Part shown: positions 18,597-57,416 of the stretch, piece by piece
Numbering within the stretch: the first letter of the stretch is position 1
Layout: each line of letters begins with the position of its first letter
Origin: Cladocopium goreaui
Taxonomy: Eukaryota > Sar > Dinophyceae > Suessiales > Symbiodiniaceae
Direction: 5' to 3'
Assembly: GCA_947184155.2 (NCBI GenBank)
Contig: CAMXCT020001391.1
Location: 124,001 to 188,000 of the forward strand
DNA: 64,000 nt
Program-made: the position numbers and the translations under genes
The notes under the pieces: model-generated
The model's input: only the letters and a program-made list of their open reading frames with translations
Databases searched by the model: none
Told to the model about the DNA's origin: nothing

Positions 18597-18694
18597 AACC
18601 CCGGCAGTAACCCCCATTTAAGGTATCTGCTATACCCTAAGGGTCGACTCGACTGTTTTCATTTCTTTTCATCCTTACTCCATTGATTGTCATC

Positions 18695-27200: not shown

Positions 27201-28562
27201 GAGAGAGTTGATGCTCGCATCCGCGAACTTGCACTGCAGTCTATGGTCTCAGCCACGAGTGCATCTCGTATCAAAAGAGCTCTGGGGTCTAAAACTGCCT
27301 TGTCGGGAGAAAACCGTTTTGCAAAAGGAGACTTGGTAGGGTTATACCGAACGCCCCCGAGCAAAGACATGAGTGGCTGGACCGGTCCATATGAAGTCGT
27401 AGAGTGTGTAGCCGCAGATGGCATTGTAGCTCTTAAAATAAATGGACAGACCAGACCATATCGCCTCCAAGATGTACGCCCAGCACAATACTATGCAACA
27501 GTTTCTCTTTATGGACACACCAATGCGGATATCTCTTTGAACGCCATGGAATACATCCATCAATTTTTGAATGAACTCCCTGATGGCCGTGTTGAAGTTT
27601 TTGGGTATGTAAATGACAGACTGACAAAAACCACCAAGCGATGGCCCAAAATTTCAAAAGCACTAGAGTTCATCATAGCAAATTCCCTCCAGATGGATGA
27701 TATCTGCACTGTAAGAATTGGACATAAAATCAAACAGCTGCAAGATCTGAACGACAGATACCGCAATGTGATTTTCAATTGGAACATGAACAACCCAGAT
27801 GCAATGCTCATACATGTTGCCGATCATCCGAGACAAAACATCAACACAATCTTTGGCCCACAGGAGTCCTTCGTCGCAACAATGCAGTGTTTTATGCTAG
27901 ACAGAGATGTCGGGATGACACTTGATGATTTTGAGGAGAGAGTGCTGGACCGTCCGTCGGCTATGGCGCATCTCGATCGAGAGATCGAGGTGGGTCGTAG
28001 TGATGGGCGGCTCAGTACGATCGCCGAGGAATCTCAAGTTAGCATCGACTCTCCAGAGGTTGAAGCATTGTATATACAACACTTCGAAGGTGCTCCCAAA
28101 GAAATCCAAAGTGATCTCAAGGAGCTGTGCTGGGTAGTTCTCAACGAACCAGTAGATGAAGTAGCAGATGTGGAGATTAAAGATGATTGGTGTTATTTTT
28201 CAAATCCAGATAACCACAATGATTGGGATCTAATACCACCAACAGTCAGTCCAGATTTCGACGAGTATGATCACACTTTTGAATTTGATGAAAATGATGA
28301 ACCATTTCTGGAAGTGTTGATCTCAGAAAGTATCACTGAATGCTTCCAAGACAGTCGCGATGTGTCTAAACCCAACACAATGAAAGTATTCCTTAATGCA
28401 GAAGCCAAGAAAGAAGTCATCGAGAGAGATACGGACTTGCTTACTGCTAAGGAGTTGATTGACCATCGTAAAGAAGTTGATGAAGCAACAGTTAAAGAGT
28501 ACGAAACCTGGCATAAGTATAATTGTTTGAACGGATCCCCAAAAAGAAGTGTAAGGTTCTGA
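24222..28562 (+). CDS. Copia polyprotein part 3: methyltransferase-like domain and integrase
   Basis: Open from 24222 to TGA 28562. Numbering from 24369: a methyltransferase-like domain begins with DVIEICGGEAR (295, motif-I-like), then APTCTPYG (353, motif-IV-like with Cys) and TEQPHP (EQP 405-407, motif-VI-like). A zinc-binding pair follows (H721, H726, C756, C759), then the integrase core with D786, D840 and E874 (IERRG, the copia AERxNR position). The integrase inserts the cDNA. The methyltransferase-like part lies where most copia elements have only the pre-integrase region. From recall, this extra domain is common in dinoflagellate copia proteins. The frame ends early through loss of one T near 28526. 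Confidence 0.9.
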   Translation, partial: GPVTTHAYLAEDELFQPPTKALIIDEHHDVPAYFQRHQYEVDVIDPRTILYTKHQAPKNIRLGHYKFVWINAPIRGKHIPPDKYSACLEEVRQLLLASEESNTFCVLIGAFGGIWRHPGIEQVAKTEHWKKCYHRLCHFSLKVDHSSKHPSSACIVTLSFCLPSIVSHSCKCEVTTHYMDWLKEYCDKQRCDAMRSISLAVLKECASEMMIDPKGEVCTSTSQGTPDLHGTDQPVGRETDEHLREDQQDAYPTWQKVQQKEKEKKLKAEGKHNPKKRKFVIEDHHDDCGNDLSGLGPHVMEEDNLAPQDLALFLMTDYANSRVRQVESLEHALIQANADSSPLDVIEICGGEARCTTVAIRRGLRAGDNFDIICSCDLNDESNQNKVIKYIKESKPLVTIMAPTCTPYGPMSNMVKHVNWESWKRSLDYARPHGKFCGRVALLVEKMGLFFITEQPHPSKLWEESEWQEVLKLSTTVSIVIHQCMTGQKGPDGGPAKKPTRFIANHRTLLEPLTKYVCDGSHEHELLEGGKASHCKLWTWKLATSIVDGITNLRELVNSREHAYPTIGTSTDASEPSSEPAEDPDKRPAVCPGCKGHLNRNDPRHTRDPDTCKYPLDAPVIWTCPGCKKMKPAGDSSHTYAQGECKHMTIAHRKGIHRKGHHPREPAKRADELPVQAQLPDGTDLGAGEGAASSSAVEAAPPVEDRIVPYNPDDGEPAESRLRGPYRKFRDAAAGSEHPSDWSRFDVTHSLKDLRSSHEPTIIRTLRKLHLRWWHAGPTNMTSVLRNAGIPEEVISYIPDIISTCRECRKWAPKAKDTQPSVSLAMNFNEVVETDLMFYREFVVHHFICRATRWHVAVETPNKTEDQLITNFHTAWVSIFGPPQQLVTDSEAGLTSSSAEARLKRMGVVLKVRGKDQHARYIERRGAILRHAMHVMESQAIREGIDINFPSLLANSVFMGNALTHVGGVTPYQVVMGRQPACLPPITDNAGLEERVDARIRELALQSMVSATSASRIKRALGSKTALSGENRFAKGDLVGLYRTPPSKDMSGWTGPYEVVECVAADGIVALKINGQTRPYRLQDVRPAQYYATVSLYGHTNADISLNAMEYIHQFLNELPDGRVEVFGYVNDRLTKTTKRWPKISKALEFIIANSLQMDDICTVRIGHKIKQLQDLNDRYRNVIFNWNMNNPDAMLIHVADHPRQNINTIFGPQESFVATMQCFMLDRDVGMTLDDFEERVLDRPSAMAHLDREIEVGRSDGRLSTIAEESQVSIDSPEVEALYIQHFEGAPKEIQSDLKELCWVVLNEPVDEVADVEIKDDWCYFSNPDNHNDWDLIPPTVSPDFDEYDHTFEFDENDEPFLEVLISESITECFQDSRDVSKPNTMKVFLNAEAKKEVIERDTDLLTAKELIDHRKEVDEATVKEYETWHKYNCLNGSPKRSVRF
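24887..24913 (+). repeat. Internal copy of the 3' LTR junction
   Basis: acagggaacacccgacttgc inside part 3 resembles acaggagaacacccgacttg at the start of the right LTR (30164-30184), including the 13-bp identity AACACCCGACTTG. Confidence 0.5.
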
Positions 28563-30133
28563 TCGACGCCAAGCTAGTCTCTAAGTGGAAATATGTAGAC
28601 GGGAAGCGCATCATCAGGATGCGATTGGCCTTGCGAGGGTTCAAGGAACCGCAAACCGAAGATGAAGTGAACTTCTCGGCCACTGCGCAAAGAACATCCC
28701 AAAAGATTCTAGCTAGTGAAGCAGCCTGCCACAAAGATTGGAGTTTTGTCGCTGTGGACATAAGCAAAGCATTTCTTCAAGGGCTCACCTTTTCCGAGAT
28801 GAATAAGTTGACCGGAGAGCCCGAGAAACACATAAGCTTTACTGTCCCGGCAGGAACAGCCAAACATCTCAGACGGATCCCAGGATATGAAGATTTTGAT
28901 GAGCGAACGGAAGCTCTCAAGTGTCTAAAACCTGGCACTGGCTGTAGAGACGCTCCCAGAGCATTCAACTTGAGGCTAATCAACATCCTCAAGGAATTAG
29001 GGTTTCGAGCATCTCTATATGACCCCCAATTATTAATGTTACATAAGGAAGAAACCCTAGTCTTAGCTATAACCGTCCATGTAGATGACATCAAGATGGC
29101 AGGTCTGAAATCAGAAATAGATTCTTTGGTTAAAACTCTGGAAGGACACTTTGGGAAATTGACGTACCAAGAAAGTGAATTTACAAACTGTGGTATTTGT
29201 CATAAAAGACTCCCAGATGGAACCATCACTCTTGATCAGACAGAATACCTTAGTGCATTAAAACCTATAAACCCAAAACACTATGCCAATCTCCAGAAGG
29301 ACGCACAATGCCCCGAGCACCTCAGAGCGCTGTATTGGAGCTTGTTAGGAGCCGTTGCCTATTCCGCCCTAACACAGGCGTGGGTCTTAGTCTACATAAT
29401 TTCCCTCCAACGTGTAACTCAGAACCCCACTGTTACACATGTCAAAAGACTGAATGCACTCACCCGAGAGCTTCAACGTCGTCCCCAGAGATTAGAGTAT
29501 AGCTCAATGACTTGTAGCAGGGTTGTTGAGCTATATTCTGATTCAGCATTCTCCAGAGAAAATGATAAGGGATACGCTTTGAGAGGTGCAGTATATCTTC
29601 GAATGGGCACTGATGTGAGAGGAGTAAAGAGATGCCATTTGATTGAGGCCGTTTCTCAATCTCATAAGCTCGTGGTGCGCAGCACATTCGCCGCTGAGCT
29701 GTTGGCACTCACAGCATCCGTTGATCAAAGTTTTATAATTATAACTACCCTTCATGAAATGTGTTTCGGACCCCTTAGTCCCCAATCCAGTATAAATCTA
29801 AGAGAAAATGGAGGTTACCTCATCGAACTTTATGTCTGGATAGACGCCAGGTCAGTTTTTAGTGCGGTGGAAAATGAAAACTTCAAATACCCAACGGAAA
29901 AGTCACTACTCTCTCATATCTCATGGATTAAACAGTTGACCACCTCGAAGATCATCAACATTTTAGGCTGGGTCGACACACGCGACATGATAGCCGATGG
30001 AATGACCAAAGGTTCCATCGATCGGTCGCAGTTAATTAGTGCTATGAAGGGGTTTGTACGAAGACTACACCCCGCCGAATTCATGAAGACCAGAGGGACA
30101 CGTCCTCTGGCAAGCACAGATACTGACGTTTGA
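28523..30133 (+). CDS. Copia polyprotein part 4: reverse transcriptase and RNase H
   Basis: This frame overlaps part 3 by 40 nt and has no ATG. It continues part 3 if TGTTTG at 28525-28530 once was TGTTTTG (giving NCFERIPKKKC). RT motif A is AVDISKAFLQG (D79), and the catalytic box is VHVDD with D188 and D189. RNase H shows D340 (YSDSAF), E392 (FAAELLAL) and the terminal block GWVDTRDMIADGMTKG, all typical of copia. All expected catalytic residues are present, so only the frame breaks argue against function. Confidence 0.92.
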   Translation: MFERIPKKKCKVLIDAKLVSKWKYVDGKRIIRMRLALRGFKEPQTEDEVNFSATAQRTSQKILASEAACHKDWSFVAVDISKAFLQGLTFSEMNKLTGEPEKHISFTVPAGTAKHLRRIPGYEDFDERTEALKCLKPGTGCRDAPRAFNLRLINILKELGFRASLYDPQLLMLHKEETLVLAITVHVDDIKMAGLKSEIDSLVKTLEGHFGKLTYQESEFTNCGICHKRLPDGTITLDQTEYLSALKPINPKHYANLQKDAQCPEHLRALYWSLLGAVAYSALTQAWVLVYIISLQRVTQNPTVTHVKRLNALTRELQRRPQRLEYSSMTCSRVVELYSDSAFSRENDKGYALRGAVYLRMGTDVRGVKRCHLIEAVSQSHKLVVRSTFAAELLALTASVDQSFIIITTLHEMCFGPLSPQSSINLRENGGYLIELYVWIDARSVFSAVENENFKYPTEKSLLSHISWIKQLTTSKIINILGWVDTRDMIADGMTKGSIDRSQLISAMKGFVRRLHPAEFMKTRGTRPLASTDTDV

Positions 30134-41579: not shown

Positions 41580-42553
41580 AGTCCTCACGCTTGATATCCC
41601 TGACATTCAGGTCCTGGTACACTTTCCTGATGATGCTGTCTTCACGTGGCACCATAGGATATTGCTGCGGAAGTTGACTGCTGGCGTTTGGCTCTGCCTC
41701 ACTCCAGACCAAGAAGTGGTCCGCCACGATTTGAACACACAAAGGCACGTGGTTTTGGACCGGACCTCAGGCTTTCCCGCCGGTTTGGCTGACGATGTGT
41801 ACGCATTTGATCCCATCAGCCGGGTCGCGCTCGAAGCGCGAAAACGCAATGCTGCGATGCAGGCAGCAGTGTTGGGAGAAGATGATCCAGGTGAGGCCAT
41901 GTCCTATGTGTGGATCATCGCTGAACCTTCTAGGAAGGACTATGGCGACACCATTGCCTCGGAGCTCATGGATGACCCCAATACTGGCATGGCCTTTGAA
42001 TCCAAAGGCGTTGTTTCTTTGAATGGCGAAGAGGTTTTCGTCCAGAGAATGACCACAGGTGAGGCAGCGGAGTTTTCCAAGTCCAAGCAAGATTCAGATC
42101 AAGATGTGCGCCTCCTGGGCGTTCACACTGACAAAGCTGGCCATCGCAAGCTTGATCTTGCTGAGGCCGTTGCTCTCATGACTGTGGAGAAGGCGGATGA
42201 CTTTCCTTTGCCGGATGACGTCCGTGCAGCTCAGGAGTTCTTGCAGGCGGTCTCTGAAGGCCCGGGAAGCCTACACAGATACCATGTGGACTGGTCCCGT
42301 CTCTCAGGCATCAACGAAAACTCCTCAGTTTGTCATTCCCACCGGATCATTTGTGAGGTGCTTCGCTTGATGATCAGCTATGATCAGCTCAACGTGTCGA
42401 GTCTTGCTGCTGCTGAGCAGCTAGTCAGGTGGCTCGTGCAACTGGAGGTCGCCACCGAAAGAAATAGCCGCGCGCCAGGCTTCTCCGGCTTGGGCTTGAT
42501 CCTGGGTGGGCCAGTCTCGGCTGAAGGCCGAGCAGTCACGGCCAAGTTCAATG
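41563..42553 (+). CDS. DIRS-like gag, 5' part (split by transposon)
   Basis: From ATG 41563 the frame runs 330 codons into the insertion. One base of codon 331 remains before CCCAATAGATTG. The 3' part is 57417-57640. Joined after removing one TG duplication, gag is 404 aa and reads AKFN/EHLTSQLKARAQIWKN across the site. The protein is acidic to neutral with a helical C-terminal part and a Lys/Ala-rich tail (GKGKAKEKAKASAKGG), as expected for a nucleic-acid-binding structural protein. The apparent stop at 42559-42561 belongs to the inserted element. Confidence 0.75.
42552..42553. other. Target-site duplication TG (left)
   Basis: TG precedes the left terminal repeat and TG (57415-57416) follows the right one. 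Removing one copy with the insertion restores the gag frame, which is what identifies the exact boundary. Confidence 0.7.
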
Positions 42554-42565
42554 CCCAATAGATTG
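42554..42565 (+). repeat. Left terminal inverted repeat CCCAATAGATTG
   Basis: Perfect match to the complement of 57403-57414. The following sequence stays similar in character (TTAGTTTAT-like, then AT-rich) but diverges. Confidence 0.8.
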
Positions 42566-42845
42566 TTTTAGCTTAAAAATAAACTATAGTCTAATTCGTA
42601 GGTTTTAAACTATTTCCTAGGATTTAGGTTATTTTCATCTTTTTAAAATATATTATTTCAAGAAGAGAAAATAAATTATTTTTTTTATCGAAATAGTTAT
42701 TTTTTTGGACTTATAGTTTAAAAAAAAAATAATTTTATATTTTAAATAAACCTTCGAAAATAGACTAAAAATAGTTTTTTTTTTTAACCTATTTCTTAGG
42801 AATTAAATTATTTTTTAAACTATAGTTATTTTTTTCGGAAAGCAA

Positions 42846-42897
42846 ACTACGACCAAACTACGACCATATTACGACCCTTGGACTACCAAACTACGAC
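42846..42897 (+). repeat. Left subterminal AAACTACGACC repeats
   Basis: Three to four copies of caaactacgacc (one attacgacc variant). Such repeats near transposon ends commonly bind transposase. The copies at the other end are in the opposite orientation. Confidence 0.8.
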
Positions 42898-43139
42898 CCT
42901 GATTTTTTATATAATTTGTTGTGCTATTTGCAAATATAAATAAATAAATATATATATATATATCTATATCTATATATATAGATAGCCATATATATAGCAA
43001 GAAGGCTATACAGCAGATTTGAAAAAAGGCATGTTATTGATTTTTGGAATTCTATTTCGACATGTGATCCCTCGGGTTCTCTCAAGGCGTTTCAAAGTGG
43101 CTCAACAAACGCTCTCCCATGCTTTTGGTTGTCGCCACA

Positions 43140-44230
43140 ACAAGCCTTTTTTTCATCAACCTGTCTCTTTCTCTTTGTCTTTCTCTTTGTCTTTGTCTTC
43201 CTTTTTGTGTTTCTCTTTGTTTTTCTCTTTGTCTTTCTCTTTGTCTTTGTTTTTGTCTTCCTTTTTGTCTTTCTTTTTGTCTTTCTCTTTGTCCTCCTCT
43301 TTGCCTTCCTTTTTGTCCTCCTCTTTGTCTTCTTCTTTGTCTTCTTCTTTGTCTTCCTTTTTGTCTTTTTCTTTGTCTTCCTCTTTGTCTTGCTCTTTGT
43401 CTTTCTCTTTGTTTTTCTCTTTGTCTTTCTCTTTGTCTTTCTTTTTATCTTTCTCTTTGTCTTTCTCTTTGTCTTTCTCTTCGTCTTTCTCTTCGTTTTT
43501 CTCTTCGTCTTTCTCTTCATCTTTCTCTTCGTCTTTCTCTTCGTCTTTCTCTTCGTCTTTCTCTTCGTCTTTCTCTTCGTCTTTCTCTTCCTCTCTCTCT
43601 TCCTCTCTCTCTTCCTCTCTCTCTTCCTCTCTTTCTTCCTCTCTTCCTCTCTCTTCCTCTCTTCCTCTTGCTGTTTTTCTTTCTCTTCCTCTCTTCCTCT
43701 CTTCCTCTCTTCCTCTCTTCCTCTCTTCCTCTCTTCCTCTTGTTCTTTTTCTTTCTCTTCCTCTCTTCCTCTCTTCCTCTCTTCCTCTTGTTCTTTTTCT
43801 TTCTCTTCCTCTCTTCCTCTTGTTCTTTTTCTTTCTCTTCCTCTCTTCCTCTCTTCCTCTCTTCCTCTCTTCCTCTCTTCCTCTCTTCCTCTCTTCCTCT
43901 CTTCCTCTCTTCCTCTCTTCCTCTTCTCCTTTTCTTCTTTCTCTTTATCTTTCTCCTTCTCTTTCTCGTTCTCTTTCTCTTTCCCTCTTCCTCTTCCTCT
44001 TCCTCTCTTTCTCTTTCTTTTTTCTCTTTCTCGTTCTCTTTCTCTTTCTCCCTTCCTTTTCCTCTCTTTCTCTTTCTTTCTTTCCCTCTTTCTGTTTTGA
44101 TCTTTTTCTCCTTTTCTGTTTGTTTCTTTCTTTCTCTTTCTGTTTCTCTTTTTCTCTTCCTCTTTCTATGTCCTTCTCTTTCTTTTTCTCTCTGTCTCTC
44201 TGTCTGTCTCTTTCTCTCTCTCTCTCTCTA
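43140..44230. repeat. Pyrimidine microsatellite (CTTTGT, CTCTTC units)
   Basis: About 1.1 kb of CTCTTTGTCTTT, then CTCTTCGTCTTT, then CTCTTCCT units. All three plus frames are open and give Ser/Phe/Leu repeats, and the minus frame gives KRKTKRKT repeats. None is taken as a gene. Confidence 0.95.
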
Positions 44231-44234
44231 GGAT

Positions 44235-44575
44235 TTCTTTGTCAAGGTCCCCTCTCTCTCTCTCTCTCTGAGGTTTCCTCCTCTCTCAAGGTGTGTGCCA
44301 AGGAAACTCGATATCTAAGTATTTCACTCAATTACTCAAGGTTTCTCAAGATCTCTCCGGTGTCTCAAGAGCCAAGGGTAGGAAGAGTTGAATTCAGAAA
44401 ACAGCTGTGCGTATAAAATATCCGATTATTTGTGTTTATATACAATCTTTTCTCAGAATCAAGTGTTCATTCTTCTCATACATATCCATCAAACCATGGT
44501 CTCACACGACAATGAGCAGTACAGAACAAGTCAATGTTTTTCGTGGAGCGCTCAAGTTGCCACCAAACTGACTAT
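44235..44575. repeat. Spacer repeat, copy 1 (downstream of transposase-like gene)
   Basis: Homologous to 47245-47625. Shared blocks include tttctttgtcaaggtccc, ggaaactc.atatctaagt, gtctcaagagncaagg and catatccatcaaaccatggt. It lies just beyond the 3' end of the transposase-like gene, so it may act as a 3' untranslated or processing region. Confidence 0.8.
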
Positions 44576-44639
44576 ATACCAGTGGATGCATGCGGTGGCG
44601 CATCAGTTTTGAAATCATTTCACTCGTTTTTTTTCAAGT

Positions 44640-46707
44640 TCAGTGCGCTAAGTCGAGAAAATGTAGGTGAAGGGCCAACCTGTAGTGACGTGCCAGCTTT
44701 GAAGTTTGTTGGTCAACTTTGTTTCCACGAACACAAGCTTTGGCGATTTGTTGCATTCGTTGCATCTGGTCCTCCCCCATAAAGCACCAAATGACTTTGG
44801 GATTGATGCATCGACTCAAAATAGCCAATTCTTGAAGCATATGGCTTTTCGATGTAATGTCGAAGACTTTCAGGCCTTCTTCAACAAAATGGTCTGCAAT
44901 CTGAGTCAAAAGCAATAGCATTCCGTTTGCGGTTTCCTCAAATTCCTGGGCAGGACCCGGGGGAAGGGAGAAGTCTTCCTTGTGATGAGTGATCATGTCT
45001 TCCAAGTGAACATTGTGCTTTAGCATCAATGCTATACGCCTATGCAGCAAAAGTGCCTGATTGGAAAACTGGTTCCACAAGGCCAGCAAAGCCTTTCCGA
45101 AGTGGCGAATTTCTGAAGCTTTGCCACGTAGTTTGGGGTATTTGCCGCCACTTCTGATGAACATCGAAAGTTTTGTCAGATAGCGGAATGGTGTTGGCGT
45201 CTTGTTGTTTCGAAAAAAGTTTTCAAGAAGGCCCAACAGGCTGCAAGGTTTGCTTCCTGTTCCCCCTCCATGACCATGCACACCAATACGAATAGCACGC
45301 TGCCGAAAATGTATTGGTCCACGCCCAAGAACTTCACATGAACCCAATCATAAGCTATTGTCCAGCAGGAAGCACCAGGAAGTGTTAGTAACACACATTT
45401 TGTTCTCTGTTCCCAACTTCTCCACTCTTCAGGGTCCCAACGTGTTGTACGCCATGCAGCTTCTGATCTAAAATCAGACCACGTTATTGGGCCTGTCATT
45501 TTGCATTGGTAATGCATGCATGGGCCAGTCGTTAAGGAATAGTTTGGGGTTCCCAGCATGCTGCAAAAGTAATCCAGGTCACCTGTCAATGCCCACAACA
45601 CAGCTTTCCATCCACCAGCCAGCAATGTGTTGGCTTTCAGGCCCTCTTTTGAATTTGCTGCAAACCTTTGGGGTCATGAGATTTCAAAAACCTACACCTA
45701 GGAAATATGGTTTCATGATGGATGAAATGCACAACTTCAAATTGAAACTCAAACCGTTCAACCTTCAACCATGAGAGACTTTGAGAGGAGTGACATTGAT
45801 GAAACTTTGAAAAGGGCTGCCTTAGCTTTGGGAAAATTCCCGGAAACAGAAACACACAAGGAAAAGTTGCTGTCAATGAGCCAAATTTCTTCACACCTCT
45901 GTGGTCGTGAGATGGCCATTTTCCGGAAGCTAATGTAAGAAAATTCCATTTTAGGAGGGTGTAAAATTCATGCAATGTTCCTTCGGTTTGGTTGCCAACT
46001 TTAAGCTTGTCAAAGAACCTCCAAATCCACATAAGCATCGAAGCGGTGTTTCCATGGCCCAGTAGAGAATACCATGAGTAGTTGGTCATGACACGCGACC
46101 ACACCTTTCCGATTCCTGTTATTGGAACGCCGTCACCGTGGACAGCAAGGGGGACTGTTTGGGCGTCCCAAAAGTCATCGGCCTTCATAGGATGGCCTTG
46201 CATAGATGGGTGTAGCCGCATGCTTCGCCAGAACTTTTTCACACGGTCGACACTTGGTACAATTGCAGTGTTCCAAAGATTTTTGTAGTTGTGGTAAATA
46301 CAAGAAAACATCTCATGAGGTAACAGGAAATATTGCATAGAATTTGGGAAGCCTTTCAAAGGTATTTTTGCGCTGAAAGGTCTTGGAATGGCCGGCACGT
46401 GCTCAACTTTGCTCATCAATTCGGCATGGATATTGTTTGAATGTTTTCCCTTGGTCCCCAAATTGGCCAAAGTTTCCAAATTTTTCAATATAGAAGGGTC
46501 TTCTGCTGCAGCTTTGATGTCTCTCACAGCCATCTCAGCTATCTGTTGTACTCTTTGCGGTGAGAAAAAAACCCATGCAAACAAGCTCAGAAGTAGCAAG
46601 GCTAAGGCAGAGGTCACGTCATTGTTCTCTTCTATACCTTCATTGGACCTCTTCAATCTCTGTCGTAGGCCACCCCGGGGTCGTTTCTTCGGCCGCGAGG
46701 ATTCCAT
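44640..46707 (-). CDS. Transposase-like protein, two exons, one frameshift
   Basis: Exon 1 46707-45897 begins MESSRPKKRPRGGLRQRLKR (nuclear-localisation-like). An intron with GT donor (45896) and AG acceptor (45646) is 251 bp. Exon 2 is 45645-44640. One base is missing in the A6 run at 45213-45218; adding it gives 605 codons with TGA at the expected family end. Landmarks: hydrophobic helix 33-49, VHGDGVP (D192), TGDLDYF (D293), C313-x4-C318, YDWVHVKFLG (D370, H373), WCFMGEDQM (E562). From recall this is one of the most abundant dinoflagellate hypothetical families. The D...D...CxnC...DxxH...E order resembles CMC/Plavaka transposases, which is an inference and not a match I could test. A KRPA-type gene lies upstream. 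Confidence 0.6.
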
Positions 46708-47244
46708 GTAGCAATGGATGGGTATTTTTGAAAAAAAATCTGCAAACAGGAGGCAAGTTTAAGCCGAAATCTTCTCAATTCTTTCAATCAGTTTCTAGAA
46801 AACATAAATTGATCTATGTTTCTTTCTTTATCAAAATAGGTCAATGGTCTACAAAAAACAAAACGTTTTGAAACTCTTGGTGGTTGCAACATTGGATCCT
46901 TGCTTGGGCTGGCTCACTTCCCACAATTTTCCTGCTCCAAAAACCAGCCGCATCAATAGCTCTGATCCAAAACGAAGCTGTAATTTGAGTCAGTATATAA
47001 GCAGGCATTTTGCATGTGATGTATCAAGACAAAGATTGAATTTGATGCTTGACAATGTTCTTGTTCTGAGTCACTGCAACAGGGGTCACAATATAATATA
47101 AATTGCCCAAATATGTAAAGTTACCATGTGTAAGGATGTTTGGCTCAATCTTGGCTGCTCACTGTCAATTTTTTTCAAGCTGCGCTCACAGCTCAGGGTG
47201 TGTTTTTATAGCTCTTGTTGGCCCTTCACCTGCTATACCGTCTC

Positions 47245-47625
47245 TCTCTCTCAAGACCCTCTCTCTCAAGGTTTTCTTTGTCAAGGTCCTCTCTCTGATG
47301 CTTCCTCCTCTCTCAAGGTTTTGTGCCAAGGAAACTCCATATCTAAGTCTCTCAAAGTCATTCAAGGTTTCTCAAAGCCCTCCAATGTCTCAAGAGTCAA
47401 GAATAGGAAGAAATTCAATTAAGAGAACAGAAAACGACAAGTGTGTGTGTGTATGAAAAGTCTCATTGGTGTATTGCATTGCTCATTTTGATAAAATCTT
47501 TTTGCAGAATCAGTTCATTCTTTTCGTACATATCCATCAAACCATGGTTTCACACGACCAGGACCAGCACAGAACAAGATTCAATTTTTTCGTCGAATCC
47601 TTCGAGTTTGAACTTGTTTTGCGTT
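47245..47625. repeat. Spacer repeat, copy 2 (downstream of KRPA-motif gene)
   Basis: Second copy of the 44235-44575 segment, about 150 bp beyond the 3' end of the next gene. It contains CTCTCTCAAGGTTTT and similar units. The gene-free interval 46708-47772 otherwise shows nothing. Confidence 0.8.
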
Positions 47626-47772
47626 CAGGTTGCCTCGCTGACAACAGTGCTTCGCACCCGTCTATGTTTGGAAAAAAGAAGCTCATGCGTTTTCCATAGA
47701 AATTGCCTAAGAGCCCAAAACTATCCTAACCGGGGGTGGAGCATCATATTGAAGAAGTGCCTAATCTAACAT

Positions 47773-49440
47773 TTAGGACTTTGCCTTGGCCCTAGCTTTG
47801 GCTGCTTGAACCTCACCATGGTACTGATCCACGTCCTGGGCGATGGTGCCAATGAAATTCTCCAAGCTGTGGGTGTTGATCGTGGCTTTGTCAGGCAACT
47901 CATTGAACATCAAGAGGGTGTTCAAATTGTTGATGTGAGTGGACAGGGTCTTGTAGCCATCTTTGATCAATTTTTGGGTTTCAGGCTGGCCCACCAACTT
48001 TGATCCATCCTTGAGCAAGCGTTCGCATGCATCCTTAGCCTTGGCAGCAAGCTTCTTCACCTTGTCGGGAATTTCATTTGCGTCCTCCAACTGCTTTTCA
48101 TCAGCCTCCAAGTCCCATCGGCAAGCAGTGCAGAATCAGACATTAAAATTGGCAAAATGATGCAGTAACTACTACTTCTTTGCAAACTTTCAGTTGAGAA
48201 ACTTGTTGAAAATCTTTATCCGAGAGAGGGCTGAGACAGGCGACAATGGTATTTCATGGATGTTGAACCTTTGTTTGTGGTTGACTTAAGAGGTCATACA
48301 TATGTCTAGTCTAGACTTCAGGTCGAACCTGTATCCCTGAGAGAGTGTGAGAGGAGTCTGGCTAAGCAAGCAACAGCACAAAAGTGAATTCTTCAATCCT
48401 GCACCTGTGAGAGAACTGGCAGCGAAACCTTGAGAGATGCTTTGAGAGAGAGAGAGAGAGATCATTTGAGGGAAACTTTCAGGGAACTGATTAAAGAGAA
48501 GTGGGCATTTCCTAGTGTTGGCCTTGTTCACTGAGGTTCCATGGGATGAAATTTAATGAGTCAAACAAGGTATCCATTTCTTGGGGTTGAAGGGGATCAA
48601 GAAAACACGCTCTAAGGATGTGAAGACTTTGCTGTAAAGCATACCAAAAGCCTTGGGTTTGCTTCCATTTCGGGAGCGTTTGTTTTCAATAGGTTTGGAA
48701 AAACGTTTGCCTTTTTTATGGGGCACTGGAAAAAATGACCTGCTGATTTCTCAATTTAACATGTTCACACCTCCAGCCTTGCTCAGTTCAAACTTCCACT
48801 TGAGCTTGGCCATGACACTGGCCAAGGAATGAGCTTGCTCTCTGGAGAGCTTCTTGGACCCAGCCACGTGTTCTCCTTCTTCATTGCCACGCACCTCGGC
48901 ATTGGTGAGCTTCCTGAACTGGAGGTATTCAACGTTGGACTGCTTGTCAACCTTAGACACTAACTCACCATTGTCCAGGGCTTTCTTCATTAAGGCCTCA
49001 TTCCCACCGAAGTGAGATGCAAGCATGATGGTACGGGGTAATGCCTCCGTCTTGTCCTTTGCAATAGACTGGTGGTAAATTTTCCTGTACTCCTGAAACT
49101 CATGCTTCTCAGTTTGTACACTGAAGGTGCCGTCCTTGTTCTTCTGAAACAGGGAATTGATCAAACGGGTCTGAAAGGCTCGAGCTCCATCTTTATTTTT
49201 CTTGGCTTCGATGTTGTACATGTGCACGATGTGCTCCGGTAGTGATCCCTGGTTCAGCATTTTGTGAAACTTTTGCGCTTTCTGCTTGTCACGCGCTACT
49301 TCTTCAGACCCTTCCTTGTCCTCATCATGCTTCTGACTATCCTTGAGTTCACTGACCACGTCCTTGATGGAGCTATGAGAAGCAGGCTTCTTCATAGAAA
49401 GAAGTCCACTCGCTGAAGCCGGCCGCTTCAAAACAGGCAT
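47773..49440 (-). CDS. KRPA-motif protein, probably two exons
   Basis: Exon 1 from ATG 49440 reads MPVLKRPASASGLLSMKKPA and continues as a helical, Lys/Glu-rich protein (FHKMLNQGSLPEHIVHMYN near residue 60). It has an open frame to 48751, with a GT donor candidate just before the stop (KAG/gtgtga, near 48768). The last exon (about 48108-47773) encodes a helical C-terminus ending VQAAKARAKAKS. It has no ATG and begins after an AG, so it must be spliced to something upstream; I join it to exon 1 because the related family, as I remember it, has this kind of C-terminus. The exact splice sites are not resolved. Biochemical role unknown. Confidence 0.5.
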
Positions 49441-49672
49441 TGCTAAGGAACACAAGTTCTAGTTCCAAGGCCCGATGTAATGCTGAAAATCTGAACGAAC
49501 AAGTATATTGGCAGCAAATACTTTGCAGCAATTCACAACAAAGACCATGACTTTGTCACATGCAAAGTATCCACTTTCTTGTCAAATTCATCAAAACCAA
49601 TTCAGAATTTCATTTACACTTGGAAAAAAATATGTTAATTTCAGTGTAATTTGAACTGTGATTTCAAGATGG

Positions 49673-49890
49673 GGTCATAGTTTGGTAGAAACTACGTCGT
49701 AGTTTCTACTCGTACTTTGGTCGTACTTTGGTAGTAGTTTGATAGTACTTTGATAGTAATTTGATAGTTGCCCATCAAAACACATGGTATTTACAATGTT
49801 TTGTGATTTCAAAGTATGACACCTCCGGAAAGTATGACCAAACTACGACTATAAAGTATGACCTACTTTCTACCAAACTACGACCCCATT
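49673..49890. repeat. Central inverted repeat of GGTCGTAGTTTGG motifs
   Basis: GGGGTCATAGTTTGGTAGAAA at 49675 is matched in inverse by TTTCTACCAAACTACGACCCC ending at 49888. Many GTACTTTGGT/TAGTTTGATAG units lie between. It carries the same motif as both ends of the element and sits close to its midpoint (49984). Confidence 0.8.
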
Positions 49891-50208
49891 CTCACAGAAC
49901 AGCTGTCTCTCCTCTCAAAGTCCCTCATGGTTTCTACTTCAAACCAGAATTTTTGTGCATCTTTGTGAATAAAGTTTGATTCTTCACTGCATTCATTCCA
50001 GTGTGAAACTCAAGACTTGCAGCTGACAGTGGAGCTTTGTTTTTGTCGCATCTCGTTGAGATCTAAGCTGAGCAAGCAAAGTTGGGTCCAAATACTCCTA
50101 CTTCTTCACGGTCTATGGAGCTCTAGGGCTAGCCAACTCTACATACGAAAAACTGATAACAAAAGTGCTTCAGTACTTTGAAGACTTATCCCTAGCAACT
50201 ACTGAACC

Positions 50209-51006
50209 TCAGTTGCCCTTCTTCTTGTTGACCTTGCGCTGGCGTTCAAAGCGAGCTGCGCGACGCGTTGCACGGCTTCCTGGGTTCTGAGGTGGTGCTG
50301 GCTGAGAAGATCCAGAAGCATCATGGTTGTCGAGCAATTGCTGGACAACCTCCATCAGCTGCAAGGAGTAGCCGCTGACCTGACCATGCTGAGTCCAATA
50401 TCCGCTTCCATCCATGGTGAGGAAACCAGGCATCTCATCATCCGAAGCATGTTCTTCACTTTCACAATCTTCATCAGGACATGGTGGAGAAGCTGCTGGG
50501 GAATCTGGCGGGTCAGAACCAATTGGCTAGGAATCCATGGGCTCAGACTCGGCTGGCACTGCTGGATTCTGAGACCCACACAGCTCATCCTTTGGGATCT
50601 CACCCTGGACAAACGTATCAGCATTCAAAGCGTGAAGTTCATCAGGGTTTGACATGGTTTCATAGGTATCATTGGGCTGTTGGGTTTCATTCTCAGCAAC
50701 AAAGAGTTCAGGGGGCGTTCCAAAAGAGATTGGCTGGGAATCGGCTGGCTCCAAGGTTTCAGTAGCGGGCACCAGGTCACCAGGGGAATTCACATGAGCT
50801 GGTGGGCTATTACCCAAGCAAATGGTTTCAGCATCAACATCAGGTCCAATCACATTGGTTGCTTGACCCTGGGTTGGCTCTTGGGACTCAGCAGCACACA
50901 GCATTGCCTTCTCAGACATGGGATCCACGGGAGTTTGAAATCCGGGGTCGTGTAAATCCTTTGAGCACTCAGTAGGCTTCAATATCAAAACAATAGTTTT
51001 CCGCAT
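50209..51006 (-). CDS. Acidic unknown protein with in-frame amber codon
   Basis: From ATG 51006 (MRKTIVLILKPTECSKDL) the frame reads 159 codons, meets TAG at 50529-50527, and continues in the same frame for 105 more codons to TGA at 50209. Composition stays the same across the TAG: Pro/Asp/Glu/Ser-rich before (ESEPMDS) and after (PIGSDPPDSPAASPP). An internal repeat pairs PADSQPISFGTPPE with PMDS*PIGSDPPDS, so the amber sits where Gln (CAG) is expected. The C-terminus is basic (RATRRAARFERQRKVNKKKG). No domain recognised. It is either a single nonsense mutation, readthrough, or a sequence error. Confidence 0.6.
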
Positions 51007-51284
51007 GCTTGATCATGAATTTTCAAGCTCTCAAACGCTAGACAAATCTAGTGATCATGATCAAGTACATTGCTAACCTTGCAACCGTGCAACTATCAAC
51101 CGTGAGAGACTTTGAGAGGAGCGACATTGAGTGAAACTCTGAGAGGATTGACATAGTTTGAAGTTGTGAGCTACTCTTGAGTACCTAAACACATTATCTC
51201 TAATATCTTCTAATCCACAGCAATGTTTTTCCATGGAATAACTCTTGGGGTTGAAAGGTTGGTTGTGGGTGAGTTCAAGTTCTC

Positions 51285-51500
51285 AACTCAGGGTCTCTCA
51301 AGGTTTAACATGTGTTCTCTCTACTCTCACGGTCCCTCACATGCACACAGTCCCTCAAGATTCAACATGTGTTCTCTCCACTCTCACGGTCCCTCACATG
51401 CACACAGTCCCTCAAGGTTCAACATGTGTTCTCTCTACTCTCACGGTCTCTAACATGCACACAGTCCCTCAAGGTTCGCTATGCGCTCTCACAGCTCTCA
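51285..51500. repeat. ~60-bp tandem repeat with CCCTCAAGGTTCAACATG
   Basis: Three to four tandem units of about 60 bp (agtccctcaaggttcaacat ... ctctcacggtccctcacatg). Part of the CTCTCAAGG spacer family. Confidence 0.85.
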
Positions 51501-52214
51501 GGGTCCCTCAAGGTTCAAGCTCTATACTGTCACATGTTTGGCTGAAAGGTTTCAAAACAAATAATATTCAGTTTTAAAAATATTGCCATGAAAAATGAAG
51601 TCCATCCACTTGTCATTTTTGATGATATCTTTTCTTTAATGCAAATGTTGATCACATGTTGAAACTCTCAAACCCTCCCAGTCTTGCAGCCATGTACTGG
51701 AGCCAAAATTCAAACGATCACAGTCAGCGGCCACACTCAGCTCATGTCTGCAGGTATTGTGACCTGACTCATTGAGTTGCAAAGTATGTTTCTCAAACCG
51801 TTTGTTTGTGTCACGTATTTGGCTGAAACGCCTCAAGAACATTTTACCCAGTTTAAACATGTTTCTATGAAAACTGAATTCCATCCACTTGTAATGTTTG
51901 ATGATAGCTTTTTTACAATACCACTTGGCAAGCTGACTGCATGAACTGACATGTGCACATGATTTGAACCCCACAGAAATATCTGAAAAACATTGTTCTT
52001 GGTGAAACAACAAATAACTACCAAAAAGGGCGTTTTTTGGTACTTATTTTCAGTACAGCTATAGACATCAAAGACTCAAGCAGCAATGTCTTCCACCTCC
52101 TATCCCAAAGACCCCCGCACTCGTTTTTTTTTCCCTCCCAAAGCTCAAGTCGGCTCGGCTGTTTGATTCCGGGTTGGGCCAATTCCAGTAGCTTAGCCAC
52201 CTGTCACAGCAAAT

Positions 52215-53168
52215 TCATTTGTTTTTTTTCTCCTTTTTGGTTTTTGATCGGCTCCTCGATCTGCTCGCCTTCTTCTTCTGATCCTTGTCCTTGTCCTTTG
52301 TCTTGTCGGCCTTCTGCTTCTTGTCCTTGATGGTTTTCTCCAGCATGTAGGACTCTGCAGCCTCCACTGACCCATACCCATCGTCCCACACTTTGTCCTT
52401 CAGGTTGTCCTGTAACCAGGTCTGTAATTCCTCATCCCCTTCGCCGCTGTCACCTTCAGGTTCAGCTTTAGGGACCTTGCTTCCCATTGCTTTGCTTTTC
52501 GCACTTCCACTCCAGTCTTCGGGGATGGCCCATGGTGGCGGCACCCAAACAGGAGGTGGTGGTGGGAACATGTATCCCATTGGCAGCATTGGCGGTGGTA
52601 CCGGGTACCCATGTGGCACCATCAGAGGATACCTGGGAGGTGCAAAGGGCGGCAAAGGCGGCAGAGGCAGTCGAGGTGGTAAGTGATGCATGGGTGGCAT
52701 CGCAGGAGCCACAGGCGGTGTCTTCTCTGAAGCCTTTGGTGGTGTTTGAGGTTGTCGTAGATCAGGCTCCTGGTTGTCCATCTGGTTCTGTTCATCGTCC
52801 TGGGACTGCGGGTGGTGCTGCTCTGCAAACTCTGCTGTGTGCTCCAGCTGCTCCGGGGGCTGAGCATAGTACCTCCTGCCAGTCTTGCGAGGAACTGCAA
52901 AGTCCACTTCTAAGGGGTACTTTGCCAGTCCATTCAGGTAGGATCCATTCAGGATTTCTATCGCTGCCCGGCATTGGTCCTCTGTTTGGTAGCTCAGGAA
53001 GGCGTTGATGCTTTTGTTTCCATCATATTGCCCACGCTTTACCAGGTACACATTGTATAATCCCTCCGTAGCATTCAGATAGTTCATCTGCTCCACCATG
53101 TCGTGCTCTGTGGTCGACATGTAGAGGTGCTTGACGAACATTCTATGGGGCGGCTTCTCATCTTGCAT
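52215..53168 (-). CDS. RRM-domain RNA-binding protein
   Basis: From ATG 53168 (MQDEKPPHRMFVKHLYM), 317 aa. An RRM-like fold occupies about residues 8-95: the RNP2-like strand RMFVKHLYM, an RNP1-like segment SINAFLSYQT, and a terminal strand PLEVDFAVPRK. A Gln/Glu-rich linker, a Pro/Met-rich segment (PPMLPMGYMFPPPPPVW) and a Lys/Arg/Ser-rich tail (SRSRSRSKTKKEKKNK) follow. RRM proteins bind single-stranded RNA; an SR-like tail suggests splicing or mRNP association. The RNP1 lacks the classical aromatic triplet, so binding strength is uncertain. It lies between the acidic and Lys-rich genes in the same direction. Confidence 0.7.
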   Translation of the reverse strand: MQDEKPPHRMFVKHLYMSTTEHDMVEQMNYLNATEGLYNVYLVKRGQYDGNKSINAFLSYQTEDQCRAAIEILNGSYLNGLAKYPLEVDFAVPRKTGRRYYAQPPEQLEHTAEFAEQHHPQSQDDEQNQMDNQEPDLRQPQTPPKASEKTPPVAPAMPPMHHLPPRLPLPPLPPFAPPRYPLMVPHGYPVPPPMLPMGYMFPPPPPVWVPPPWAIPEDWSGSAKSKAMGSKVPKAEPEGDSGEGDEELQTWLQDNLKDKVWDDGYGSVEAAESYMLEKTIKDKKQKADKTKDKDKDQKKKASRSRSRSKTKKEKKNK

Positions 53169-53814
53169 GGCTTTCGAAAGTGGCACAGGGATTTCGTGGG
53201 AGAAGGTTTAAACATTAAAGCAGTCCAAATGTTTGGAACTGGTTGGAAAGCAGTGCTGGGGCTCAGGGATACTTGAAATTGCCAAACTTGCATGACTTTT
53301 CAAACATGTTGATCATAAAGGTCTTAGAAGCGGTTCTGGAGTTCATGGATGTGTAACTTGAACTCTCTCAGACAGTGAAGGTGAAATCTGTGCAGTGTTT
53401 GTTAAATAGATTGATCATGAAAAGATTAAACTCACATGGTCTGACATTCGGCTTTGTGAAAATAATGGTGGGACTGCATGTGTGTTTTCATCGTTTTCCA
53501 TTGTTTTCCAATGATAGTGTCCTTGAAACGCAAGTATATGGAATATACACATGTACAAGCTTCACATGGACAACTACAGAAGATGGCAATGCTTCTTAGT
53601 TGAAAGCTAGAAAACCTCTTTCAAATTCGACATGCTCACATGAATGCACCATTGTTCTGTTTTACAATTTCCATACCCCCATTGAATTTGAAACAGTTTT
53701 TGGGAATCACTTCATATCCTAGATTCTTTTCAAGCTAAACTACGCTCACATGTCAGAACGCGCCTCACCTTTTTGCTGTGACCACAGGCTTGGTTCGCGT
53801 CTTGAAGCCGGCTC

Positions 53815-53990
53815 AGCCCCTCTCTCTCTCTCTCAAGGTTAGTGTTCAAAAAAATCATCCCTCTGAGCCCCTCTCTCTCTCTCAAGGTTAGTGTTGAAAA
53901 AAAAATCCATCCCTCTGAGCCTCTCTCTCTCTCTCTCTCAAGGTTAGTGTTGAAAAAATCATCCCTCTGAGCATGCTCTCTCATGGTTTT
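53815..53990. repeat. Tandem CTCTCTCAAGGTTAGTGTTGAAAA repeat
   Basis: Three units of about 60 bp, each ctctctctcaaggttagtgt followed by tgaaaaaatcatccctctgag. It lies in the spacer between the RRM gene and the Lys-rich gene; the spacer 53190-54529 otherwise shows no gene. Confidence 0.9.
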
Positions 53991-54529
53991 GAATTGTGAC
54001 ATGACTCTCAATACCAAATTTCCCGTGGGTGGGCCCCCCCCAAAATGGACCCCACCAAGTCCCAAAAATTGGCGCCAAAACACAGGAAATAATGCGATTT
54101 TCCCAGACTTGGGGGGGTCCATTTGGCAAGGTCTAAACCAAGGGGAAATTTACAAACTCTCAAGGTTTCTCTCACGGTTTATCAAGATTATTGTGTATAA
54201 TTTGTAAGTTGTCTCTTTATATAATTCAACTCAAACCTCATCGTGTAAAGCTCTTTGAAACATGTTCACACTTGTATCGTTTCAAGTTTTCGGCTCGGCA
54301 GGCAAAACGTTCTTTTTTCAGTGGCAAGCTAGGTGACACGGTAGCACTGAGCGGTTCCAACATTCTTTCCAGGCTGAACATTTCACCAAGAGAAAGTGCT
54401 GTACACACACAGACACTCACATGAAGTTTGATTTTGAAACACAACTTGAAGAAATCAAATCATTCTAGCTCAACCTGCAGGCAAAATCTGTACGACCGAG
54501 TTCTCATTTTCTAGCTTAGGCTTGCACTC

Positions 54530-56056
54530 TCAGTCAACATCCTCAGGGTTCTTCTGCGTGTTCTCCGAGTTCATCGCAGTCTCTTCAAGGACCTCGGTCT
54601 TCTCGATCTCTTGGATGCCCATCTGTTCCTCTTTGCTCTTCTTCATGTTCTTCGTCTTTTTTTCTTTGGGGATCTTCTTCTTCAGGGTGCTGGCTTTGGC
54701 CTTTGGTTTGCTCTTGGCACTTGCTTTGGGGCTTGATTTGCTCTTTGCAGCTGCTTTGGCCTTTGCACTGGGACATAGTTTGTCAAATTCAGCCCCTGCC
54801 AATCTACCAGCAACCCTTCCCACTGCCTGCGCATCCTCTTTGCACATGCCCTGCCTCATCAACAGTACTTCACTGCGGTGGTATGCATTGCTGGTTGTTC
54901 GCTGTCGTCGAACCTCTCGGGAAACTTCGGCTGGATCAAGGTCTTTGGTGAGATTCAATGCTGCTACAACAATTCCTTCAGGGATACGTTCCTTGAGTTT
55001 GTCCTCATCTTCTTTTTGTGTCAAGCCCAGCGTCTCCGGGGCTGCACCGGGTCGTTTCATGGGGGCTCGGGTGGATTGCTCTTCTGCATCTCCTTTGGTC
55101 TTCTTCTCTTTGCTTTCTGTCTTCTTCTCTTTGCTTTCTGTCTTCTTCTGCACATTCTTCTTCTTTCCTTTCGCATTCTTCTTTGGTTTGGGCGCAATGG
55201 CATTGATCCTTTGGTTTTGGGATTTGCCGTCTCTTGCAATGGGTTCTGCCTCTGCTGCGCTTTTCATCAAGTCTTTCTCTTCTTCAGTCATGTGGAGGCT
55301 GAAGATGGTTTTTTTCTGGGGGGATGGGCTCTCAGCATCTTGGGTTGCTTTTGAGCTGGAGGCGCCAGTTGAGGAAGGCTGCTTGAGGTATGTAATCTTG
55401 ATTTCTTTCTGTTCATCTTCCTCACTTTCTTGCAAGACTCCATCAAAGATTGCATTGAAATCCATAGACACTGATTTTGGGTTCACGGGCTGGCTGCTCT
55501 GATTGCTCGTCGTGTGTGGGGGCGAAGGGGAGGGTGATGCTTCTGCAGATTGTTGGCTGTCGCCATCCACAGGGCAAAGGGCGAGTTGGCTACCCACATC
55601 GACATTGATCAAAGCAAGGATGCTGTCTAAGGCTTGGCGCTGTGCTTTGTCGCATTTTCGGAATGCTTGTTCTCTTTTGTCTGCATGTTGTTTCAAAATA
55701 CGTAAGTGTGCCAACCCCATGCGCACCCAATCATCCATCATGTCAGCTGCATCATCATTGTTCTTCTTCGAATGTCCCCACCTCTTGGTCTCCAAAAGCC
55801 TGAGCATAGCTTGTTTGTGCTTTTTGGCACTCACGATGGTCTTGGGCGCCACAATCACGTAGGCTTTGAAGAGGTCAGCCAAACCACTTAACCACCCAGT
55901 AGGACAACCACTCTTCCAACTGGCTTGGGGGGGCGGCTCCAAAACCTTGAAAACATTGTTCTCACGCTCTTGATCCATGTAGGTTTCAAGAGGCCCGCAG
56001 AGATCAGCAACACTCACTGTTGGATCTGCAGTGAGACGTTGGCGCGGTTGCAGCAT
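54530..56056 (-). CDS. Lys-rich unknown protein (508 aa)
   Basis: The frame opens after an AG acceptor at about 56071-56069, and the first ATG is 56056 (MLQPRQRLTADPTVSVADLC). The N-terminal 170 residues look globular and helical (WLSGLADLFKAYVIVAPKTI; a Lys/Asp-rich HSKKNNDDAADMMDDWVRMG). The middle is Ser/Pro/Glu-rich with KKTESKEKKTESKEKKT repeats, then AYHRSEVLLMRQGMCKEDAQ (helical, about residue 410), then a Lys/Ala-rich tail of the AKSKSSPKASAKSKPKAKA type, as in linker-histone tails. I recall the AYHR...M..G helical block from many dinoflagellate proteins. Likely nuclear and nucleic-acid associated by composition. It is the 5'-most gene of the element. Confidence 0.6.
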   Translation of the reverse strand: MLQPRQRLTADPTVSVADLCGPLETYMDQERENNVFKVLEPPPQASWKSGCPTGWLSGLADLFKAYVIVAPKTIVSAKKHKQAMLRLLETKRWGHSKKNNDDAADMMDDWVRMGLAHLRILKQHADKREQAFRKCDKAQRQALDSILALINVDVGSQLALCPVDGDSQQSAEASPSPSPPHTTSNQSSQPVNPKSVSMDFNAIFDGVLQESEEDEQKEIKITYLKQPSSTGASSSKATQDAESPSPQKKTIFSLHMTEEEKDLMKSAAEAEPIARDGKSQNQRINAIAPKPKKNAKGKKKNVQKKTESKEKKTESKEKKTKGDAEEQSTRAPMKRPGAAPETLGLTQKEDEDKLKERIPEGIVVAALNLTKDLDPAEVSREVRRQRTTSNAYHRSEVLLMRQGMCKEDAQAVGRVAGRLAGAEFDKLCPSAKAKAAAKSKSSPKASAKSKPKAKASTLKKKIPKEKKTKNMKKSKEEQMGIQEIEKTEVLEETAMNSENTQKNPEDVD

Positions 56057-56659
56057 GTTTGCGAGCACCTATCAAAATTTGACAGCTATTGTTCAGAGCC
56101 CAAAATACTGGTTGATAAACCACAGAGTCTAACTATTGAAGTCATTTTCAGTGATACATTTTGATAAAGTTCAGTTGTCTCAGCTCTGCATGCATGTTCC
56201 AAAACCTGTGGCTCTTCTCAAATTGGTTGAAATTTCTACTCACATATTTTAGACTCAACCCCAAATCCCAAAACTCTCCAGGTCTCTCAAAATTTCCCCT
56301 CATGGTTTTTGTATGGATACAAGTGAAACGTGAAACGTATATACAGGACATGCCAACCGAAAACCCTGAGTGAGAGAGGGGGCACACTCAAACACACAAC
56401 CCTGAGTGAGAGAGTCCACTGAAACTGCAATCCTTGAGCAGGAGAGAACAATCCACTGTGACCTGCAAAACCTTGAGTGAGACAGCAATCCACGGAATGA
56501 AATACATGGATATTTGCGAGAATTATTTGACTATACATATGGAAGTGGAACTTCTCTCCACCTTGAAGATGGACAAAACCATTCTCATGACTCCGAATGT
56601 TTTAGAGATTTGCTTCCAGCAAACTGCAACCTTCCAAAAATAGACCTATTTTTTTAATA

Positions 56660-56910
56660 AAACCATTACTCATTGGTTTCAGGAAGTGCCCTCAAGGTCC
56701 CTCATGTAGTCTCTTCAATTCCCCCAGAGTCTCTCAAGTTCCCTCAAGGTTTCTCAAGTTCTTTCAAAAACAGTTTCTCAAGTTCCCTCAAGGTTTCTCA
56801 AGTTCTTTCAAACAGTTCCTCAAGTTTCCTCAGGGTCTCTCAGGTCCCTCAGGGTCTCTCAAGGTCCCTCAAGGTCTCTCAGGGTCCCTCAAAATGTCTC
56901 AAGGTCATCA
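56660..56910. repeat. CTCAAGGTCCCTCAAG spacer array
   Basis: About a dozen 12-15-bp units (tctcaaggtccctcaagttc), the spacer motif of the element upstream of its first gene. An inverted set (cctgagtgagagag) lies at 56365-56490. Confidence 0.85.
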
Positions 56911-57049
56911 TGGATTAAAAAAATTCATCAAACCACAAGGGATCACATCGCAACAAGATGGCACACATACAAGTTTGAGGACAAGTGCGCTATATCACAA
57001 ACACTTTGACATGATATGTTTTCACATTGTATATCCTTCCAAAAATAGG

Positions 57050-57160
57050 GTCGTACTTTGATCGTAGTTTCAAATTTTCTCGAAAATTCAGGGTCGTACT
57101 TTGGCAAAAAAAATGAAAATAAAGGGTCGTAGTTTGATAGAAACTAGGTCCTAACTACGA
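57050..57160 (-). repeat. Right subterminal GGTCGTAGTTTG repeats
   Basis: gggtcgtactttg, gatcgtagtttc, gggtcgtactttgg and gggtcgtagtttgatag, the inverse orientation of the left-end set. Confidence 0.8.
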
Positions 57161-57402
57161 CGGTGTTTGGGCGATGCCCGGGCATCGAAATAAGATATAT
57201 AGTTTCAAAAAATAATATATAGTTTAAAAAATAGTTAAAAAAATAAATAGATTTTTGGTTTTCACGGATGTCGAAAATAGACCGAAAAAAACAAGATAAT
57301 AGACAGAATCGTCGAAGATATTTCGGCAACTCATCATAACCTGTTTCTAAGAAATAAATGAAAACCACCAAACGAAGATAATAGTCAGAAAATAAACTAA
57401 TT

Positions 57403-57414
57403 CAATCTATTGGG
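57403..57414 (-). repeat. Right terminal inverted repeat CAATCTATTGGG
   Basis: Perfect complement of 42554-42565; followed by TG (57415-57416), then the resumed gag frame. Confidence 0.8.
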
Positions 57415-57416
57415 TG

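Follow-up and report, generated by a model that had tools for sequence, protein, structure and literature searches.

A 64,000-nt window of the genome of Cladocopium goreaui, a dinoflagellate symbiont of corals (the whole stretch analysed here; GenBank assembly GCA_947184155.2, contig CAMXCT020001391.1, forward-strand positions 124,001 to 188,000) contains an insert of ~15 kb, read directly from the sequence at window positions 42554-57414, that interrupts an open reading frame (ORF) of its host. Between inverted termini it carries five minus-strand genes: a putative transposase (T), a KRPA-motif gene (D), a gene for an acidic protein (C), one for a protein resembling RNA recognition motif (RRM) proteins (B) and a Lys-rich gene (A). 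The features of the insert, in window positions, are as follows.

42552..42553, no strand: left copy of the 2-bp target-site duplication, TG
42554..42565, plus: left terminal inverted repeat, CCCAATAGATTG; exact in 8/8 fetched copies, 7 of them also with the right end
42844..42898, plus: left subterminal array of AAACTACGACC; 3 exact sites, at ~290-340 in five other long two-ended copies
43092..44165, no strand: pyrimidine-rich simple repeat, unaligned in the divergent copy C2315
44640..45657, minus: transposase T exon 2, with GDLDYF (second Asp region), the C(2)C motif and WCFMGED
45898..46707, minus: transposase T exon 1, with HGDGVP (first Asp region)
47773..48095, minus: KRPA gene D exon 2; start approximate; codon conservation
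48770..49440, minus: KRPA gene D exon 1 (MPVLKRPAS...); 3' boundary approximate
49673..49885, no strand: central array of AAACTACGACC in both orientations, upstream of D
50209..51006, minus: acidic protein gene C; nonsense codon at 50527-50529 in the window copy
52215..53168, minus: gene B, RRM-like, Pro-rich and Lys/Ser-rich; RRM_1 E 0.019, under the Pfam cutoff
54530..56056, minus: Lys-rich gene A; C-terminal frame differs in three copies
57049..57135, minus: right subterminal array of AAACTACGACC, upstream of A
57403..57414, minus: right terminal inverted repeat, exact reverse complement of CCCAATAGATTG
57415..57416, no strand: right copy of the 2-bp target-site duplication, TG

The original prediction had described perfect 12-bp inverted termini, a 2-bp TG duplication, exact restoration of the host frame on removal of the insert and five minus-strand genes of these kinds, and all of these were confirmed. 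When the flanks were joined in silico (150 bp per side, one TG removed), an open frame resulted (...AVTAKFN/EHLTSQLKA...), and by their coordinates the interrupted pieces of the host ORF, 991 + 224 nt, make up 405 codons. A perfect 12-bp inverted repeat is by itself weak evidence: after a simple complexity filter, the window holds 163 inverted pairs of 12-mers, the CCCAATAGATTG pair included. This pair is raised above chance because it is sited at the break in the gag frame and recurs elsewhere. The host ORF had been called a DIRS gag; it has no Pfam match naming DIRS, and its DIRS identity is not independently proven. The 1242-aa frame that follows it looks like a reverse-transcriptase polyprotein, without Pfam support; the consulted part of one account describes the reverse transcriptase of Symbiodinium DIRS elements as a poor fit to Pfam (PMC5890265).

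Copies in the genome

The contigs of the assembly were searched with both ends of the insert (6202 contigs, 1.166 Gb; contigs are labelled in the manner of the window contig, C1391). The first 300 bases match nine places, window included, and the exact 12-mer is present in all eight others. Both 12-mers are exact in seven of the eight stretches fetched from these left-end matches, so the ends do occur together in other copies, as had been proposed; in the eighth, C26, the left 12-mer is present and the right end was not seen within 20 kb. The last 300 bases match 34 places, again with the window, and 32 of the 33 others reach the last base; the right 12-mer is exact in 29/29 of the end-reaching matches read (L027-L055). 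Six of the 34 are full matches at 98-100% identity (window included), three are more divergent (C2315, 81%; C1484, 76%; C780, 84% over 81 bases), five stand at 67-68% (three on C2064, one each on C6139 and C57), 19 cover the final 34 bases only, and one, on C1064, is an internal partial match. Some right-end matches have flanks in common (L029/L030, L035/L037/L038 and L048/L052). The three right ends on C2064 lie within ~28 kb and have an identical printed flank, perhaps through duplication.

Four copies, on C2837, C531, C2006 and C5994, measure 14.9-15.2 kb and are 98.7-98.9% identical to the window copy and 99.45-99.75% identical to one another; C3840 holds an additional near-identical copy, interrupted by the contig start. 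The C2315 copy, with both ends, is 13.9 kb long and 76.6% identical to the window copy, and short derivatives are found on C780 (1062 bp) and C1484 (767 bp). Judged by the small divergence between copies, the family has multiplied recently, and it forms a single branch within a set that is older and much larger. The 2-bp duplications agree in six of the eight two-ended copies (window TG, C531 TG, C2006 TT, C2315 CT, C780 TA, C1484 AA). The matches of 34 bases come from non-autonomous copies of ~517 bp that form one family, and 17 of the 19 were read; the far end of one (L045) was not found, leaving 1/17 unreadable. Compared by eye in the printed flanks, the duplications agree in all 16 readable members (TA 8, CA 3, TT 2, TG 2, AA 1), 15 of them independent since L048 and L052 have the same flanks. 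The right flanks of the copies at C2837 (59405) and C531 (234577 onward) are alike over ~3 kb at 98-99.7%, and their left flanks differ; ectopic recombination, duplication and an assembly chimera are candidate explanations.

The four young copies also bear on the gene models. T has an intron inferred from the sequence (GT..AG, phase 1); its exon 2, frameshifted near 45,210 in the window copy, is open throughout in all four as one frame of 344 aa. Gene C is open in all four as well, and three of the four differ from the window copy in the C-terminal frame of gene A, in which C5994 has a frame break. In two relatives, P0067 and P0073, exon 2 of D (a 120-aa frame at 47.8-48.1 kb) is continuous with exon 1. 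The simple repeat at 43092..44165 was left out of the gene count because long ORFs overlap there on both strands. The window copy is a damaged member and can probably move only with the help of intact copies.

Conservation of the gene set and gene order

When C2006 is compared with C2315, differences are in excess at third positions in the minus-strand frame of each of the five genes. In the codon-matched pieces a stop occurs once, at the upstream, probably intronic, end of D exon 2; a column method added one further stop in C and codons with partial gaps in A, B, C and T exon 1. The ratio of nonsynonymous to synonymous rates (dN/dS) of gene B is based on 113 codons. C6139 holds a more distant element with the same right end (the left one was not seen), in which A-B-C-D and an initial portion of T persist at protein identities of 30-68%. 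Comparison of the copies shows five co-oriented genes kept in order under purifying selection; the gene set is conserved between matching ends, and the order A-B-D-T recurs genome-wide.

The tblastn counts are no fewer than 119 places for T (merged into 109 loci), no fewer than 139 for D, no fewer than 72 for A (63 loci) and 22 for B (20 loci); the T, D and A totals are lower bounds, first-look candidates having been scored in part, and the clusters cover A, B, D and T. With gaps of up to 13 kb allowed, 69 clusters contain two or more gene kinds, and 66 of them lie on one strand in the order A-B-D-T (ABDT 15, ADT 21, DT 20, ABD 3, AD 3, AT 2, DDT 1 and ADTD 1, in the last of which another D follows T at a distance). 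The other three are mixed: in C57, D-T lies on the opposite strand, in C350 a second T lies inside on the other strand, and the third is C6202. A D gene is found upstream of T, no more than 8 kb away, at 10/10 T loci of at least 60% identity, at 23/27 of 40-60%, at 18/31 of 34-40%, at 8/19 of 30-34% and at 1/22 below 30%; ~0.2 loci would be expected in this arrangement by chance.

The C57 cluster (245375-261659) has A-B and D-T on opposite strands as if the half from the central array to the left end had been inverted. A second family of ~15 loci (for example on C4, C591, C3982, C424 and C5835) has the same gene order, with T ~47% and KRPA ~34% identical; the near-equal scores of its copies make a young age probable. 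Some 40 dispersed KRPA-like frames of ~156 aa and ~25% identity mostly have no transposase detected nearby. Among the 57 T relatives listed, the genera, where named, are Durusdinium, Polarella, Symbiodinium, Effrenium and Cladocopium; a T relative and a KRPA relative fall on a 735,137-nt contig, and A and KRPA on a 72,828-nt one, judged by equal contig size only. One annotated C. goreaui protein, P0028, joins the C-terminal part of the transposase to a glycosyltransferase-like part (PF03016), either as a gene-model fusion or as a real capture.

Predicted fold of the transposase

The predicted model of the T relative P0003 has an RNase-H fold with a RAG1/Transib-like architecture, RAG1 being the recombinase of antibody genes: model residues 11-594 align on mouse RAG1 ~461-1005, nearly full length, a better match than that to HzTransib. 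The part of the RAG1 core outside the match is, we presume, the nonamer-binding part only. Between the second D and the E lies a C(2)C motif (C301 and C304, invariant in 26 aligned rows), and the H(3-4)H region reads HxxxH in the majority consensus of the 26 rows. Transposase_21 was not listed by hmmscan for T or its relatives, although distant homology is still possible.

Motif arrays and proposed mechanism

The motif AAACTACGACC, with up to one mismatch, has 15 sites in the window, of which 13 are inside the element in three clusters. All three clusters are present in the six long two-ended copies, C2315 included, and C6139 has the central and right ones. Because the right cluster precedes A and the central cluster precedes D, two transcription units are suggested, A-B-C and D-T.

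In the mechanism that we propose, T, with its RNase-H fold and RAG1-like layout, would bring the two ends together, excise them and reinsert them at a 2-bp staggered cut. By analogy with TNPA of En/Spm, one of the proteins of the element (D or A being the likeliest) would bind the AAACTACGACC arrays of the two ends, and through the central and right arrays might also control the two transcription units; we consider the chances of such an element-encoded, motif-binding regulator to be evenly balanced. For the RRM protein we suggest, with low confidence, a role on transcripts of the element itself.

Classification and alternative explanations

That the insert belongs to a transposon with a conserved gene set is practically certain, and we consider it very likely to be an autonomous-type, CACTA/CMC-type (CACTA-Mirage-Chapaev) cut-and-paste DNA transposon of ~15 kb. 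Its termini are exact and common to dispersed, near-identical copies, its duplication is fixed at 2 bp in most of them, and short non-autonomous derivatives exist. The predicted RNase-H DDE architecture, the C(2)C motif and a duplication within the 2- to 5-bp range agree with the CMCT clade (CACTA/EnSpm-Mirage-Chapaev-Transib), and the CCC termini, which are those of animal TRC elements and not CACTA, and the subterminal repeat arrays agree with CACTA/EnSpm. We place the element with the CACTA/CMC group because of transposase fold, CCC termini and 2-bp duplication; it would work like a CACTA element, and its membership is likely but unproven by sequence.

Several observations weigh against this reading. 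Neither T nor its 26 aligned relatives matched a Pfam transposase family by hmmscan, and a profile search of Protein Data Bank sequences gave no RAG1 match, which leaves fold, motif and ends as the basis of the CMC assignment. In the window subfamily the second H of the H(3-4)H region is E (HxxxE). The predicted KRPA (D) model is poor (predicted local distance difference test, pLDDT, 60), and thus no DNA-binding fold is shown for any helper. The duplications are mismatched at C2837 (TA/TG) and C5994 (TG/TA). As for the gene set, some antisense plus-strand frames likewise show third-position excess, with stops in C2315 for five of the eight listed for C2006 and none for three, and T exon 1 of C2315 is matched by tblastn as two pieces in different frames, which makes a frame break near residues 33-50 probable. 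For 49 of the 109 T loci and 79 of the 139 D loci, the D-T arrangement was not found over a distance of 8 kb, so the T and D families also exist apart or their partners are beyond detection; clusters of one gene kind only (D 61, T 38, A 16) argue against strict synteny.

The fold is also what would recommend a Transib/RAG-like transposon outside CACTA, as T models best onto RAG1, nearly full length and ahead of HzTransib. Fold alone cannot tell the two groups apart because no CACTA transposase is among the structure matches listed. Known Transib/RAG-like duplications are almost always 5 bp and the ends resemble the heptamer of recombination signal sequences (consulted part of PMC7204232), whereas here the duplication is 2 bp and the ends are CCC, and we regard this alternative as improbable. 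A superfamily of its own, with the rank of CACTA and Transib and defined by the five-gene set, would account for the fact that, in the libraries searched, no transposase family with a name was matched at sequence level, for the conserved gene set and for the central motif array, but termini, 2-bp duplications and subterminal arrays are all CACTA-type, which makes this rank doubtful. A somewhat better case, still short of probable, can be made for a distinct, old and operon-like dinoflagellate superfamily in which a RAG1-fold transposase is co-inherited with four helpers, an RNA-binding protein among them, in two units each under the end-marking motif, with gene order kept down to ~30% transposase identity.

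Large size and several genes could also point to an endogenous virus or Polinton-like element; however, the eight insert ORF pieces scanned against Pfam contain no capsid, polymerase or packaging domain up to E 1, and cut-and-paste transposons typically have short non-autonomous copies like those seen here, which share the ends and the 2-bp duplications, so that such an origin is very improbable. A coincidental inverted repeat on either side of unrelated genes in an array, which the 163 inverted pairs might suggest, or an assembly join, is refuted by the same ends at many places with different flanks and can be set aside almost entirely. The original claim of a new large transposon family is supported, with one adjustment: gene set, central array and depth of synteny are new as far as our searches show, and this appears to be an undescribed five-gene variety of large DNA transposon, but its kin are known and lie in the CACTA/CMC group.

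Other features of the window

On the plus strand at 18641-30133 are Copia-type frames with rve (24222-28562) and RVT_2 (28523-30133) matches, both slightly under the Pfam cut-off, and upstream of them lies a frame of 1699 aa that has a RING finger and weakly matches a zinc-knuckle-like domain. Another frame with weak RING matches is on the minus strand at 4438-5634.

Significance

Many dinoflagellate repeats are unclassified, and the consulted part of the C. goreaui genome paper states that novel Symbiodiniaceae repeats would stay so for want of references (PMC9412976). The exact ends, gene models and synteny rule given here now allow such elements to be recognised, and make abundant unnamed protein families (KRPA, gene A and the T family) recognisable as likely transposon genes. 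They would also add to dinoflagellates a lineage of transposases with a predicted RAG1 fold and an unusually rich set of helpers, and they make testable the question of why a cut-and-paste element keeps an RRM protein in a trans-splicing lineage.

Comparison with known transposons

Transib, RAG-like elements and RAG1 are linked to T by its predicted fold, which matches most of the RAG1 core, but Transib and RAG-like elements have 5-bp duplications and other termini, and the RAG-like ones carry a RAG2-like gene (consulted part of PMC7204232). In the consulted part of PMC12730594, Plavaka, ESTA and Lanisha of the CMCT clade have the C(2)C motif and some have 2-bp duplications, as here, whereas Plavaka ends in TGT..ACA or CATCA..TGATG, ESTA targets TA, and some carry a TET/JBP gene. 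The consulted part of PMC1636069 attributes a Transposase_21 domain, undetected here, to the TRC elements and does not mention a five-gene set, but SmTRC1 and the TRC elements of T. castaneum and A. aegypti resemble the present element in CCC ends, 2-bp duplications and multi-kb size. For plant En/Spm and Tgmt*, the consulted part of PMC2613891 describes a second element-encoded protein that binds the arrays, of which the counterpart here is inferred; Tgmt* has CACTA termini, a 3-bp duplication and products from one large spliced gene where this element has separate genes, and no central array is mentioned in that part. With both, the element has in common short inverted repeats, subterminal arrays at both ends and large size.
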